The position numbers and the translations under genes were made by a program. 64,000 nucleotides of DNA from assembly GCF_026586625.1 (NCBI RefSeq), contig NZ_JAODIW010000008.1, positions 777,793-841,792 on the forward strand. Reading direction: 5' to 3'. The DNA is from Halobium salinum (lineage in GTDB: Archaea > Halobacteriota > Halobacteria > Halobacteriales > Haloferacaceae). Of the stretch, positions 2,271 through 36,307 are shown piece by piece. The notes under the pieces were generated by a model. It made no database searches. It saw only the letters and a program-made list of their open reading frames with translations, and was not told where the DNA came from. Within the stretch, counting starts at the first letter, position 1. Every line of letters begins with the position of its first letter.

Positions 2271-2488
2271 TGCCGGACCTACGCGCCGGCCGTACCTGTA
2301 CCGGTCGGCGGCCGCAAGAGTCCGCGGGAGTGGCGACGGACGTCGAGCGGTCAGACCCGGCGCCGTCCACCGATTGTCGGGAGAATCGTCCGTCCGAGAT
2401 GTCGGCCACCCTTGCCGGCATGTGGGAGCCCGGGCCGTTCTTACATCTGCAGTCGGCCTTATGCCGTCGACAACCCAATCAGCGTTCG

Positions 2489-2587
2489 ATGACCGACACC
2501 GATCTCCGAGACGAGATTCGTGACCACGCCCCCGCCGACGCCGCCCCGGAGCTGTACGAGCCCGTCGACGGAGGGAAGACCCGATGA
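2489..2587 (+). CDS. Tiny ORF (32 aa) overlapping the next gene
   Basis: A 32-residue acidic peptide starting MTDTDLRDEIRDHAP. The ATG lies 28 nt after a TATA-like element (CCTTATGCC, 2457-2465), the spacing expected for a leaderless haloarchaeal mRNA. Its stop codon overlaps the start of the next small gene in an ATGA arrangement, which suggests translational coupling. No domain is recognisable. Such peptides can be upstream leader ORFs or real microproteins. The promoter spacing and coupling are the main evidence. Confidence 0.5.
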   Translation: MTDTDLRDEIRDHAPADAAPELYEPVDGGKTR

Positions 2588-2736
2588 CGGAGCCGGCCGG
2601 TTCGAAGCCTCAGGAAGAGGAGGAGGAGGCCGACGACGCCCACCTCGCCGACGTGCAGGACGGGGCGGGCTGCACCGAGATTTGGGAGCACCTCTCCGAC
2701 CGGCGGGAGGCGAACGACGTCGCCGCCGACGACTGA
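2584..2736 (+). CDS. Conserved-type acidic small protein (50 aa)
   Basis: A 50-residue protein with a run of five Glu residues (11-15) and a C-terminal GAGCTEIWEHLSDRRE segment whose single Cys and amphipathic helix look conserved rather than random. I recall similar GC-x-E-x-WEHLS tails in other haloarchaeal small proteins but cannot assign a family. It is coupled to the preceding 32-aa ORF by an ATGA overlap. A function in metal or redox handling is possible but not shown. The overlapping +1 frame is a shadow. Confidence 0.55.
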   Translation: MTEPAGSKPQEEEEEADDAHLADVQDGAGCTEIWEHLSDRREANDVAADD

Positions 2737-2845
2737 GCGCCGAGACGACCGAAACCGGCGCTCGTCGGCCCGCCGCCGACGCTCGTCCGAGAACGGCGCA
2801 GTCGGGCGAGTCGCTTTTAGTACCCGGCCGCCAACCTGTCCGTAG

Positions 2846-3565
2846 ATGAGTCGGGACCCCGGACAGTCGTCGGCCCACAGAGGAGACGAGGGCACCGACG
2901 ACGTTCCTGCAGACCGGAGGGAACCCGTCGGCGAGCCGGTGGTCCGTGCGGACCCGGCGATCACGGGCGAACGAGCGGCAGAGGCGGTCGGCTTCGACCC
3001 CGACGACCCCGAGAGCGTCGCCGAGGCCGCCGAGACCGTCCGAGCGTTCGCCGGCAACACCGCCGGCGCCGACGACAACGTCTACATGCTCCGCGGGGCC
3101 GCGGCCTGCGCGGCGCTCGTCAGAGGGACCGGCTCCTACAAGGCCGCCGCCGAGCGCGCCGGCGGCGACGCGACCGTCTCTTTCATTCGGAAGTGGGCCC
3201 GGGTGCACGACCTTCCGCAGTCGGTCCGGCGACACGTCGCCCGCGGGCACATCGCTCCGACCGCGGCCAAGCACATCGCGCGCGTCGCCGGCGACGCCCG
3301 ACTCCACCTCGCGTGGGCGACCGTCGACGCCGGACTCACCGTGCGCGAGGTCCGGGCGGCCGCCAGCGACATCAACGCGGGCACGGCGGCGACCGACGCC
3401 CTCCGCGAGCACGGCGTCACCCCGGGCCACCTCGAGGTGGGCCTCCCGCCCGACCAGTACCTCCTGCTCCGCCGCCGGGCGTCGTTGGAGAACCGCGAGC
3501 CGGGCGAGGTCGTCGCCGACGCGCTGGACGCCTACTTCGAGACCGACCCCGACGTCGGCGACTGA
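2846..3565 (+). CDS. ParB/KorB-like DNA-binding protein (DUF7119-type)
   Basis: A 239-residue protein with an acidic, disordered first 35 residues. The following helical region resembles the helix-turn-helix of ParB/KorB proteins: SYKAAAERAGG followed by FIRKWARVHDLP and a second helix set at PTAAKHIARV. The C-terminal about 45 residues (LPPDQYLLLRRRAS...) form a probable helical dimer or effector region. There is no N-terminal ParB CTPase box (GxxRR) and no parA next to it, so a partition role is unlikely. I believe it matches the haloarchaeal DUF7119 family. A TATA-like CTTTTAG lies about 28 nt before the ATG. Its last 34 bases overlap the convergent peptidase gene. Confidence 0.7.
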   Translation: MSRDPGQSSAHRGDEGTDDVPADRREPVGEPVVRADPAITGERAAEAVGFDPDDPESVAEAAETVRAFAGNTAGADDNVYMLRGAAACAALVRGTGSYKAAAERAGGDATVSFIRKWARVHDLPQSVRRHVARGHIAPTAAKHIARVAGDARLHLAWATVDAGLTVREVRAAASDINAGTAATDALREHGVTPGHLEVGLPPDQYLLLRRRASLENREPGEVVADALDAYFETDPDVGD

Positions 3566-32078: not shown

Positions 32079-33650
32079 TCAGTCGTCCGCGGGTGTCGTT
32101 CGGTCGACGCCTTCGATGCCGGGGATGCCCTCGACACCCATCGACGCCAGTTCTCGTTTCAGTCCCTGTTCGTCCGCCACGTTCTGGGAGAGCTCCATCG
32201 CCTGTGCGAAGTTCTTCACCAGCCCGCAGTTCGGCCCCTCGGGGGTCTCGGAGGGACAGATGCGACCCCACTGGGTTGCGTGGAGGTCGCGCGCCTCGAA
32301 GTGGGGCTGGCTCCGCGACAGCGGCGAACGGAGCCGTCGCAGGTGCGACAGGACGCCCATGTAGTCCGTGCGGTCCACCAGTTGGGAGACCCCGGAGCGG
32401 CCGCCGACCCAGTTCCCCGTCGCGATGGGGTGTTCGAGGCGCTCGGTCAGCACGTCGGAACGGACGACGGTGTTGACCGTGAGCTTCCGGTTGCGCATGT
32501 TGGCGCGTTCGAGCTGGTACTTCACGTCGCGGGCCAGCTTGTTGAGCGCCGTCCGGAACAGGTCCTTCATCAGGTCGCCGCTGACCTTCAGGCGCTTGTT
32601 CGCGTAGTGGTCCTTGTCGTCGGACTCGCGCCGCCCGAGCGCGAGTTCGAAGCAGGCCTCGGCCATCCGGCAGAGGTAGTACGCCTTGTTGATGCGGACC
32701 TCCTCCTCGTCGACGCCGTCCTCGTGGAGGTGCGGGAGCAGGTAGCGGTCGATGACGTAGTTCGCCCGCTTCAGCTGGTAGTTCTTCCCCTGGCCGCTGG
32801 CGACGCGCTTCCCGAGGGTCTCGATTGCCTCCTCCTCGGTCTGGACGTCGGCCATCTCCAGGTTCTCCAGCATGAACTTCACGATCTCCGGGTCGTCGGA
32901 GACGCGGTGGACGATCTCCTCGTCGGATTCGAGGCCGAGCGCGCGGACGAGCGTCACGAAGTTGACGCTGCCCGAGACGGAGGGGAAGGACACTTCGAGC
33001 AGGCCCTTCCGGTTGCGTTCGCAGAGCACGAGGGCGCGGTACCCGCGGCGCTGGGAGAACGTCTTCGCGACCTGAATCTCGTCGCCGTACTTCGTGTCGT
33101 ACTCGGCGAGAATCTTGTTCGGCGCCAGGTCTTCGCTGGTCATCAGGACGCGCTCGGAGCCGTTGACGATGAAGTAGCCGCCGGGGTCGACGGGGTCCTC
33201 GCCGATCTGGACGAGCTCGTCGTCGTCGAAGCCGGCGATGTTACACTTCTCGGAGCCGACCATGATCGGCATCCGGCCGACCTTGGTCTCGGCGGAGTCG
33301 ACGACGACCTCCTCCTCCTCCTCGCCGCCGCGGACGATGGACATCTCCATGAACACCGGGGCGGAGTAGGTGATGTTTCGGAGGCGAGCCTCCTGCGGGT
33401 ACAGCAGTTCCTCGGACCCGTCGGCCTCGCGGACGCGCGGCGTGACGATGCGTACGTCACCGAGTTCGACGAAGACGGGCTCCTCGCCCTCCTTGTCGCC
33501 GATGTCGGTGTCGATGGTCTCCTTCTCGCTGACGACCTCCTGCATGCCGCGACCGAGGAAGTTGTTGAACGAGCGGAAGTGGTGCTCGGCGAGACGTTCC
33601 TGTGAGAAGTACTCGCGGGAGACCTTCCGGCGGGCCTGACGGTCGGTCAT
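32079..33650 (-). CDS. rpo2N: DNA-directed RNA polymerase subunit Rpo2N (B'')
   Basis: N-terminal half of the second-largest RNAP subunit, 523 residues. It contains the protrusion and lobe domains, [13 protein letters not shown] near residue 155 and the fork-loop/rifampicin-region end [24 protein letters not shown]. Its start overlaps the rpo5 stop by four bases (ATGA). Confidence 0.97.
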
Positions 33651-33880
33651 TCGACCACCAGCCTGTAGACGACCGCGCGGTCGGCCGTTCGCGAGTCACG
33701 CTCGATGCGCACCACGTCGCCGGTCTCTGCCTCCGTCTCGCGGAGCGCCGGGTCCGTGCGCTTGATCTTGGGCAAATTGGTCTTGTTCACGTTGTACTCC
33801 TCGAGCACCGCCTCGACCTCCTCCGGGTCGTCGAGGACGGTGTGGTCCGGGACGAGTTCGTGTTGGCTTACGTCTACCAT
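33647..33880 (-). CDS. rpo5: DNA-directed RNA polymerase subunit Rpo5 (H)
   Basis: First gene of the rpo operon, 77 residues, matching the archaeal RpoH/eukaryotic Rpb5 C-terminal domain. Motifs are [10 protein letters not shown] at the N-terminus, [13 protein letters not shown] in the centre and [10 protein letters not shown]. Promoter-like TTAAAT at 33953-33958 lies about 75 nt upstream, which would leave a leader of roughly 45-50 bases, longer than for most genes in the window. Confidence 0.96.
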
Positions 33881-33952
33881 GGGTGGGTTCGGCTTCGGCT
33901 GTAGGGAGAAGCGGCTGTCACGAGATACTACAGCGAGTTATCGGGCGCATCC

Positions 33953-34142: not shown

Positions 34143-34225
34143 GTGCAGGAAGCCCGGATGGTGTAGTGGCCCATCATACGACCCTGTCACGGTCGTGACG
34201 CGGGTTCAAATCCCGCTCCGGGCGT
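34143..34225 (+). repeat. 83-bp direct repeat, left copy
   Basis: Identical to 35046-35128. The repeat covers nine bases of upstream sequence, the whole tRNA-Asp gene and one base after it, and both sides diverge sharply. The pair encloses about 820 bp with the PD-(D/E)XK gene. The sharp ends show a duplication or an insertion that rebuilt a complete tRNA gene. Confidence 0.9.
34152..34224 (+). tRNA. tRNA-Asp(GTC), copy 1
   Basis: A 73-nt uninterrupted cloverleaf. The acceptor GCCCGGA pairs with TCCGGGC and the discriminator is G. The anticodon stem CGACC/GGTCG closes the loop CTGTCAC with anticodon GTC. The T-arm is GCGGG TTCAAAT CCCGC. Identical to copy 2 at 35055-35127. The identity starts nine bases upstream and ends one base after the gene (83-bp direct repeat). 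Confidence 0.97.
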
Positions 34226-34292
34226 ACTTCTGTCGGACCCTGCCCCCTAACGAGCCGTCTGGGTGTCTCTACGAGTAAAGAGAGTGAAGTCG

Positions 34293-34311
34293 GCGAGACG
34301 AAACGTCTCGC
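34293..34311 (+). repeat. Hairpin downstream of tRNA-Asp 1
   Basis: A perfect 8-bp stem GCGAGACG / CGTCTCGC with loop AAA, about 69 nt after tRNA-Asp 1. A comparable 8-bp hairpin (35149-35156 with 35167-35174) follows tRNA-Asp 2, and a 7-bp one (63015-63021 with 63048-63054) follows tRNA-Ala. The core matches the first hairpin at 18.9 kb. Confidence 0.65.
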
Positions 34312-34356
34312 GCTCCCGAGCCGAGGTGCTGGGTCCGACGAACTCAGCTACGAGTA

Positions 34357-34413
34357 GGTTTGAACCAAAGAGTGAAACGAGCGTCAGCGAGCGAAACGAC
34401 CGGGGTTCAAACC
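34357..34413 (+). repeat. T-arm-flanked repeat, copy A
   Basis: A 57-nt element with perfect 10-bp ends GGTTTGAACC / GGTTCAAACC, 132 nt after tRNA-Asp 1. The interior (AGTGAAACGAGCGTCAGCGA then GCGAAACGACCG) is shared with copies B (35204-35264) and C (62932-62995, minus strand). The right end with the following ACGATGCGGGCG is a worn version of the tRNA-Asp 3' end. This is the most diverged copy. Confidence 0.75.
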
Positions 34414-34521
34414 ACGATGCGGGCGTAGGTCTGTCGAACTCGACTCAGCGGCCGGCGTTAGACGTACTACATCAGCCGGAGTGACCCCCGAAGTTATGCG
34501 TCGACACGTGTGGCTGTTCGT

Positions 34522-34947
34522 ATGAGTACGAAGCAGCGGGGCGACGAGACGGAATCGCGTCTTCTGGCCGAGCTGATTTCGAGAGGGTACAGCGTCTCCG
34601 TTCCCTTCGGCGACAACGACCGCTACGACTTGGTCGTCGACGCCGGCGACTCCCTCTACCGCGTGCAGTGTAAGACCGGGTGGGTCGAGGAAGAGGCGCG
34701 AATTCGGTTCAAGACCGGGAGCAAGACGACGAAAGACGGCGTCCCGGTAACGACCGACTACGGCGACGATATCGACTCGTTCGCGGTGTACTGTGCGGAG
34801 ACCACCACCTGCTACTGGATTCCAGCAGACGAAGCGGGGAAGAAGAGCACCTATCTCCGGGTCGTCGAGGCCGCAATCGACCATCCCTCAGTGAAGTACG
34901 CGAGGGACTACCGCTTTGCTCGGAACCTTCCAGAACTGGTTCGGTGA
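34522..34947 (+). CDS. PD-(D/E)XK endonuclease, group I intron-associated family
   Basis: A 141-residue freestanding nuclease. The fold is marked by RYDLVVDAG (catalytic D36) and YRVQCKTG (Q49, K51), with an early helix ETESRLLAEL that carries the supporting Glu. This pattern (GDNxRYDLVVD, then LxRVQCKTG) matches the family of I-Ssp6803I, a homing enzyme of a tRNA group I intron. No intron is present here. The ATG at 34522 lies about 25 nt after a TATA-like GTTATGCG. It sits between two identical tRNA-Asp genes. Alternatives are a Holliday-junction resolvase-like or host-domesticated repair nuclease. Confidence 0.8.
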   Translation: MSTKQRGDETESRLLAELISRGYSVSVPFGDNDRYDLVVDAGDSLYRVQCKTGWVEEEARIRFKTGSKTTKDGVPVTTDYGDDIDSFAVYCAETTTCYWIPADEAGKKSTYLRVVEAAIDHPSVKYARDYRFARNLPELVR

Positions 34948-35045
34948 TGGTATCGTTCTCACAGCCAATGGGGGTGTCCACGCCGAGCCGACGACTGTCC
35001 GTCCGCATATGAGAACGCTTATCTGTCCGTTCGAAGTAGCCACCT

Positions 35046-35128
35046 GTGCAGGAAGCCCGGATGGTGTAGTGGCCCATCATACGACCCTGTCACGGTCGTG
35101 ACGCGGGTTCAAATCCCGCTCCGGGCGT
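35046..35128 (+). repeat. 83-bp direct repeat, right copy
   Basis: Identical to 34143-34225, containing tRNA-Asp copy 2. Left flank (CACCT) and right flank (GTTCTCC) share nothing with the first copy, which places exact duplication borders nine bases before and one base after the tRNA. Confidence 0.9.
35055..35127 (+). tRNA. tRNA-Asp(GTC), copy 2
   Basis: 73 nt, identical in sequence to copy 1, uninterrupted, anticodon GTC, discriminator G. It has its own TATA-like CTTATC about 34 nt upstream. Lies 107 bp after the PD-(D/E)XK gene. A 22-base copy of its 3' end recurs at 35253-35274. Confidence 0.97.
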
Positions 35129-35203
35129 GTTCTCCGGCGAACGGTTCCGCGAGCACCGTGTAGCGTGTGCTCGCGATGCTGTGAGCCGTGAATCGCCACT
35201 GAA

Positions 35204-35264
35204 GGGGTTCGAACCAGGGAGTGAAGCGAGCGTCAGCGAGCGAAACGACCGAGGTTCAAATCCC
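35204..35264 (+). repeat. T-arm-flanked repeat, copy B
   Basis: A 61-nt element with imperfect 12-bp inverted ends (GGGGTTCGAACC / GGTTCAAATCCC, two mismatches), 76 nt after tRNA-Asp 2. The interior AGGGAGTGAAGCGAGCGTCA matches copy C over most of its length. Its right end merges into an exact 3' fragment of tRNA-Asp. Confidence 0.8.
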
Positions 35265-35274
35265 GCTCCGGGCG
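35253..35274 (+). repeat. 22-nt exact tRNA-Asp 3' fragment
   Basis: GGTTCAAATCCCGCTCCGGG and the next CG are identical to the T-loop, 3' T-stem and 3' acceptor of tRNA-Asp, ending on the discriminator base. There is no 5' part of the tRNA, so it is a remnant, not a gene. It is what an attachment-site half left by insertion into a tRNA 3' end would look like, or the tail of the repeat itself. Confidence 0.8.
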
Positions 35275-35603: not shown

Positions 35604-35972
35604 TCAGAGAGCGATGAGGGCCGACCCGAGACCGACGCCACCCAGCGCGGCGAGGAGGTTGACCGCCGCGAACTCGGCGGCGTCGGCGCGTCGGTCCTCG
35701 GTGGCCAACTCCACGACGCCGACCGCGAACGAGGAGAAGGTGGTGAACGCACCACAGAACCCCGTCCCGACCGCGAGCGTCGTCGGACCGCCGAGTGCGG
35801 GGCCGGCGGCGACCACGATTCCGAGCAGGGCGCTCCCGAGGACGTTGACGGCGAGCGTCGCCCGGCGACCGGCGACGATCTGCCCCAGGAGATACCGCGA
35901 GACGGCTCCGGCGGCGCCGCCGAGGCCGACGAGGACGACGGCGGACAGCGCCTCCGTCGGCGGTGTGGTCAT
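35604..35972 (-). CDS. crcB: Fluoride channel FluC/CrcB, subunit 2
   Basis: Four-helix fluoride exporter subunit, 122 residues. The family motifs GGAAGAVSRYLLG, NVLGSALLG and GFCGAFTTFSSF (phenylalanine box and Na-site region) are intact. The ATG overlaps the stop of the upstream crcB by four bases, so the two are coupled and may form a heterodimeric channel or two homodimers. Confidence 0.93.
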   Translation of the reverse strand: MTTPPTEALSAVVLVGLGGAAGAVSRYLLGQIVAGRRATLAVNVLGSALLGIVVAAGPALGGPTTLAVGTGFCGAFTTFSSFAVGVVELATEDRRADAAEFAAVNLLAALGGVGLGSALIAL

Positions 35973-36307
35973 CGGCGCCCGCCTACCCTGAGTCCCAGGT
36001 ACGCTGCGGCGAAGCCCAGCGCGTAGTTGGCGGCGACGTTGGCGCCGCCCCAGAGCGGCCCCAGGCTCACGGTCTGGACGGCGAACGTGCTGTAGGTGGT
36101 GAACGAGGAGAGGAGCCCCGTCGCCAGCACCAGTCGGACGCGCTCGTCCGCGACCGCCGTCACCAGCGCGCCGAGCGCGAAGCTCCCGAGGACGTTCACC
36201 GCGAGCGTCGACGGCGCCCCCGGGAGGGCGAGACCGAACGCGTATCGGAGGCTCGCACCCACGAACCCGCCGGCCGCGATCAACCCGAACCGAACGGCGC
36301 GTTGCAT
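35969..36307 (-). CDS. crcB: Fluoride channel FluC/CrcB, subunit 1
   Basis: Four-helix fluoride channel subunit, 112 residues, with GGFVGASLRYAFG, NVLGSFALGAL and GLLSSFTTYSTF. The gene starts 23 bp after the HerA-like gene and overlaps the second crcB (ATGA). Heterodimeric FluC pairs are known from several microbes. No fluoride riboswitch could be recognised upstream. Confidence 0.93.
   Translation of the reverse strand: MQRAVRFGLIAAGGFVGASLRYAFGLALPGAPSTLAVNVLGSFALGALVTAVADERVRLVLATGLLSSFTTYSTFAVQTVSLGPLWGGANVAANYALGFAAAYLGLRVGGRR

Follow-up and report, generated by a model that had tools for sequence, protein, structure and literature searches.

The gene located at positions 34522 to 34947 (forward strand) of the window, a 64,000-nucleotide stretch of the Halobium salinum genome, probably encodes a free-standing homing nuclease of the I-Ssp6803I family dedicated to tRNA-Asp. 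Judged from sequence comparisons, it would represent one branch of a haloarchaeal family that comprises one clade per tRNA species and that spreads together with a protected allele of the tRNA gene. Two 83-bp segments of perfect identity (34143 to 34225 and 35046 to 35128) enclose the gene. ARAGORN and Rfam confirmed that each contains one intact tRNA-Asp(GTC) gene, as claimed in an initial annotation made from the sequence alone, and neither program found an intron in either copy. Copy 1 (34152 to 34224, forward strand; anticodon arm, 34179 to 34195; Rfam score, 61.5 bits) is the standard G28:C42 allele according to the allele comparison, and copy 2 (35055 to 35127, forward strand; anticodon arm, 35082 to 35098) is identical to it. 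These are the only full copies of tRNA-Asp found in the genome, and the nuclease gene, for which an in-frame GTG at 34510 offers an alternative upstream start, is the only gene of its Pfam type found there. The locus is bordered on the left by rpo5 (33647 to 33880, reverse strand; PF01191, E = 2.8e-28) and on the right by two crcB genes (35604 to 36307, reverse strand; PF02537, E = 3.7e-20 and 2.9e-20). Use of rpo5 as a synteny anchor recovered the locus in 165 of 170 genomes.

The 141-residue product matched Pfam family PF11645 (PDDEXK_5) with an E value of 2.6e-48 and a score of 164 bits, for a cut-off of 26.1. I-Ssp6803I (PDB 2ost) was the only significant solved relative identified by sequence (E = 2.9e-8 with phmmer and 2e-15 with a profile), in agreement with the family assignment of the initial annotation. 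An AF2 model of the protein (pLDDT, 84.8) also retrieved 2ost in Foldseek (E = 1.1e-10; TM score, 0.76), which was the only match at E ≤ 1e-3. Residues D36, Q49, and K51 were invariant in 36 sequences and aligned with the D, Q, and K of 2ost. Values of dN/dS ranging from 0.06 to 0.22 indicated that the nucleases are under purifying selection. Many of the nucleases linked to tRNA-Pro carry C-terminal extensions, for total lengths of 265 to 382 residues (L097, L098, L100, L101, and L110; also L094, L095, L102, L108, L120, and L123). I-Ssp6803I, which is associated with a group I intron of a cyanobacterial tRNA-fMet gene, has the fold, the family, and the D36-Q49-x-K51 motif in common with the window protein. 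Unlike I-Ssp6803I, the window nuclease is encoded by a stand-alone gene next to an archaeal tRNA gene that is intact; the Rfam search detected no group I intron between positions 33900 and 35600 at E ≤ 1, and, both tRNAs being intronless, the window nuclease is not intron-encoded.

The initial annotation had interpreted the locus as a compact tRNA-targeted mobile cassette, pointing to a duplication with borders nine bases before and one base after the tRNA and to copies of the tRNA 3′ end. The sequence elements were there as described. A repeat at 35206 to 35274 (forward strand) closes in an exact 22-nt tRNA-Asp 3′ end (35253 to 35274), and a worn version of it follows tRNA copy 1 (34357 to 34425, forward strand; 87% over 69 nt). 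In nearly all of 60 genomes of the family, tRNA-Asp was found near rpo5, often as two tandem copies and often with 3′-end tails, mostly in combination with no nuclease. The nuclease itself followed one tRNA-Asp gene in Halobaculum or two tandem genes in genus g4, and was located between two in the window and in genera g10 and g18. Since tandem copies, tails, and the nuclease occur independently of each other, neither the duplicated tRNA nor the tail delimits the element, and the tail lies outside the nuclease element. Nor were the nine leader bases informative as the edge of a duplication, given that many nuclease-free genomes have a TGCAG(G/C)AA leader ahead of tRNA-Asp. What stood of the cassette interpretation is the tie between the nuclease and tRNA-Asp and the fact that relatives either carry or lack the nuclease at this rpo5 locus. 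Gene conversion between paralogues would be a simpler explanation for the identity of the two tRNA copies.

Repeats whose last bases are an exact tRNA 3′ end were observed 100 to 150 bp past tRNA-Asp and tRNA-Lys in many haloarchaea, independently of the nuclease (the two window repeats, L149, and L112), and they may be att scars or another type of repeat. As integration is known to occur at tRNA genes (Reiter 1989, as cited in PMC3293823), we considered whether the nuclease is the cargo or relic of an element integrated at such a hot spot, the 3′ tails of the window being its att scars. We regard this as very unlikely. The interval between the tRNA copies and the tail contained no integrase, only the nuclease gene and two other open reading frames without a Pfam match, and tails occurred just as well in the absence of the nuclease, including at tRNA-Lys, where empty and occupied sites have tails of the same kind.

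Linkage to tRNA genes was a general property of the homologues. Among the 55 read in the family, 54 adjoined a tRNA gene (at a distance of at most 764 bp), all 54 on the strand of the tRNA. The closest ones (46 to 59% identity, some truncated or with stops), from 14 genomes of four other genera, were all next to tRNA-Asp within about 1 kb of rpo5. The outcome that the initial annotation had named as contrary to its interpretation, two equally spaced tRNA-Asp genes in all relatives and a nuclease gene mostly away from tRNAs, was not seen. In named haloarchaeal genomes, some of which overlap with the family set, 38 of 39 homologues adjoined a tRNA gene. Homologues that at first appeared to lack a tRNA neighbour were found to adjoin an intron-bearing tRNA-Lys(TTT) or tRNA-Arg(TCT) gene, and most of those beside tRNA-Met were located between an intron-bearing tRNA-Asn(GTT) gene and tRNA-Met. 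Phylogenetic analysis of the nucleases recovered one well-supported clade for each of Asn, Pro, Lys, and Arg and two groups for Asp; the intron-linked Lys, Asn, and Arg nucleases together formed a single clade (support, 98/88). The clade of a nuclease predicted the neighbouring tRNA species in named genomes from other haloarchaeal families. The link to tRNAs is clade specific, since a PF11645 subfamily typified by L132 (L132, L341, L342, and L344) is not near tRNA genes. One homologue (L126, genome G142) is embedded in a cluster of roughly twelve tRNA genes that may be the tRNA array of a provirus or a plasmid.

The tRNA genes adjoining these nucleases frequently differed from the standard allele. 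For tRNA-Lys(TTT), an intron of about 35 to 41 nt was present in 23 of 150 typed genomes, and the Lys nuclease was found in 9 of the 23 genomes with the intron versus 0 of the 127 without it (P = 1e-8), these and the following counts being of genomes rather than of independent events, with within-genus contrasts that correct for kinship only partly. Direct reading of the intron-bearing tRNA-Lys loci of the remaining 14 genomes revealed no nuclease. The Asn nuclease was present at tRNA-Asn(GTT) in 23 of 40 intron-bearing versus 7 of 103 intronless genomes (P = 3e-10), and in Halorubrum alone in 20 of 22 versus 7 of 26. Five of the eight Asn nucleases or remnants at intronless loci were broken and three were full length, versus 12 of 12 full length among those fetched at intron-bearing loci; in G108, G119, and G150, an intact Asn nuclease adjoins an intronless standard tRNA-Asn. 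At tRNA-Arg(TCT), the Arg nuclease was found in 2 of 5 genomes with the intron and in none of 49 without it (P = 0.007).

For tRNA-Pro(TGG), the difference concerned the anticodon stem. The standard stem (CGGGC/GCCCG) was present in 105 genomes, none of which contained the nuclease (0/105), whereas a non-standard stem was found in every typed genome harboring the Pro nuclease (15/15). The contrast also held within Halobaculum (nuclease in 7/7 genomes with a rewritten stem and 0/4 with the standard stem), and two genomes (G101 and G109) combined an altered tRNA-Pro with nuclease remnants. For tRNA-Asp, the difference concerned the 28:42 pair. All 18 loci of nuclease clade A, including 10 from other families that were read after the 28:42 rule had been noticed, lacked G28:C42 owing to a compensatory change from G:C to A:T (two changed pairs in L207), and the clade A genomes contained no G28:C42 copy of tRNA-Asp. 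The 15 loci of clades B to D all keep G28:C42. A role of A28:T42 as protection against every Asp nuclease was rejected, since it holds for clade A only. This allele was also found in seven nuclease-free genomes and, more generally, many intron-bearing or rewritten tRNA alleles had no nuclease; we read them, short of proof, as reflecting nuclease loss. The intron at position 37/38, the rewritten stem, and the 28:42 change are all located within the anticodon arm. The anticodon region of a tRNA gene is also the target of I-Ssp6803I, according to the title of Bonocora and Shub 2001 (cited in PMC3984707). Attachment sites for integrative elements do not predict one clade per tRNA, placement on the same strand, or a tie to introns or rewritten anticodon arms.

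The window nuclease belongs to clade B, together with those of G044, L194, L195, L197, L316 to L318, and L320, and all nine loci have the standard tRNA-Asp. If clade B follows the logic of its relatives, its nuclease should cut another allele, most obviously A28:T42, or else a site beyond the tRNA. The rival clades A (A28:T42) and B (G28:C42) may target each other's allele.

One relative was found inside an archaeal tRNA intron. In a genome from another family of the order (G294), a nuclease open reading frame of the Lys clade (55%) is located within a 451-nt intron at position 37/38 of tRNA-Lys(TTT) (L328, positions 1433 to 1958). Removal of the intron yielded a tRNA recognised by ARAGORN, and the junction folds into a bulge-helix-bulge (BHB)-like structure. 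This locus, the only cellular long-intron match checked by hand and accepted, and the only case of intron encoding among the relatives, appears from its sequence to represent a nuclease of this family encoded by a BHB-type tRNA intron of an archaeon and would be a missing link. The introns of 350 to 1,000 nt that ARAGORN reported around the nuclease by spanning two tRNA-Asp genes were rejected as artefacts.

Comparison of empty and occupied alleles revealed collinear flanks that were largely 85 to 95% identical in the best pairs. In Halobaculum, about 500 bp containing the nuclease replace about 50 bp directly past the 3′ end of tRNA-Pro. The Haloferax alleles differ at two distinct places in one locus, namely in the intron and in the nuclease. 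The nucleases of clade A were 67 to 78% identical across families, versus 60 to 73% for rpo5. Conversely, nucleases of clades A and B from two species of one genus were 53% identical, versus 97% for rpo5. Decayed nucleases were identified in G082, G101, G110, G111, and G114. Purifying selection combined with frequent decay is consistent with the course that homing genes are expected to follow.

On balance, we favor the view that these nucleases act as natural home-and-rescue drives on essential tRNA genes, each clade cutting the anticodon arm of one tRNA and traveling with a protected allele, either a BHB intron or a rewritten stem. According to this model, the nuclease would cut unaltered tRNA alleles within the DNA of the anticodon arm, and the break would be repaired from a chromosome carrying the nuclease and the protected tRNA. 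Both would be copied in together by co-conversion, which would restore the tRNA and spread the element. After fixation, the nuclease would decay and the intron or the rewritten tRNA would remain. The initial annotation had proposed that repair of the cut tRNA-Asp locus restores the tRNA gene along with the cassette. This is plausible for the family, in which protected alleles travel with the nuclease, but the window allele is the standard one.

The same pattern of self-protection is predicted if the nuclease serves the host as a guard that cuts integrating elements or incoming foreign tRNA alleles, introns and rewritten arms being marks of self. Purifying selection is compatible with this explanation, and tRNA introns have been proposed to be a shield against integration (Randau and Soll, as quoted in PMC3293823). 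We nonetheless consider a guard function unlikely, because patchy presence, frequent decay, and a nuclease tree discordant with rpo5 better suit a selfish element, and because relatives are also found in phage tRNA arrays. That the nuclease acts on RNA, in tRNA processing or cleavage, and not on the tRNA gene is extremely unlikely, even though the neighbouring tRNA genes are on the same strand and changes in the anticodon arm also alter the RNA. Its fold is typical of homing endonucleases that cut DNA. Moreover, an intron would give the RNA no protection, because introns are removed from the mature tRNA, and splicing is independent of the nuclease, as the 14 genomes with an intron-bearing tRNA-Lys and no nuclease at that locus indicate.

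The enzyme family itself is known, and the home-and-rescue model has precedents in phages, from which free-standing and collaborative homing have been described (PMC3984707, PMC13096335). In collaborative and intronless homing (PMC3984707), a free-standing nuclease is likewise linked to its presumed target, and the donor is shielded by an intron or by an altered sequence. An intron at the presumed cut site together with a nuclease, as in collaborative homing, was found for the Lys, Arg, and Asn relatives but not at the window. An altered donor target, as in intronless homing, was found for the Pro nucleases and Asp clade A, whereas clade B of the window has the standard tRNA-Asp allele. SegB, encoded in the T4/T6 tRNA array, also cuts within tRNA genes (PMC13096335). 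SegB is a GIY-YIG enzyme, whereas the nucleases described here are PD-(D/E)XK enzymes of cellular archaeal genomes, with essential tRNA genes as presumed targets and one clade per tRNA species. Unlike I-Ssp6803I, their partners are BHB-type introns (with one nuclease located inside such an intron, in L328) or rewritten tRNAs. Engineered home-and-rescue and cleave-and-rescue drives (PMC7968924, PMC7951863) share the logic of destroying the wild-type essential gene and carrying a recoded resistant copy. In contrast to these drives, the present systems are natural and compact, and they would act as drives on tRNA targets, with rescue by an edited tRNA or its intron.

A literature search with most subscription journals outside its scope retrieved no description of the PDDEXK_5 family at archaeal or haloarchaeal tRNA genes, and none in which this family is tied to BHB-type tRNA introns or has a rewritten tRNA allele as its protected partner. 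According to a 2014 review, the mechanism of large-scale intron transposition in Thermoproteales was still unknown (PMC4090602). Here, a nuclease is statistically tied to archaeal tRNA introns at three tRNA genes, and in one case its gene lies within the intron itself. If the model is correct, this nuclease family would be a driver of tRNA intron gain in archaea and could explain how such introns spread. The tie of the same family to rewritten, intron-free alleles would be a natural counterpart of engineered cut-and-rescue drives and an example of selfish DNA that reshapes essential tRNA genes.

Relatives of the nuclease were also detected in viral contigs, most of the best 28 being located in phage tRNA arrays. 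In two of these contigs, phage tRNA-Met(CAT) (L251, positions 2447 to 2950) and tRNA-Pro(TGG) (L258, positions 2425 to 3005) genes are apparently split in the anticodon loop by 430 to 505 nt, nearly all of which is nuclease open reading frame; neither split tRNA matched a group I intron. Another phage homologue (L254, positions 2501 to 2917) contains one in-frame stop in the region of the conserved GDN motif, perhaps a reassigned stop codon.
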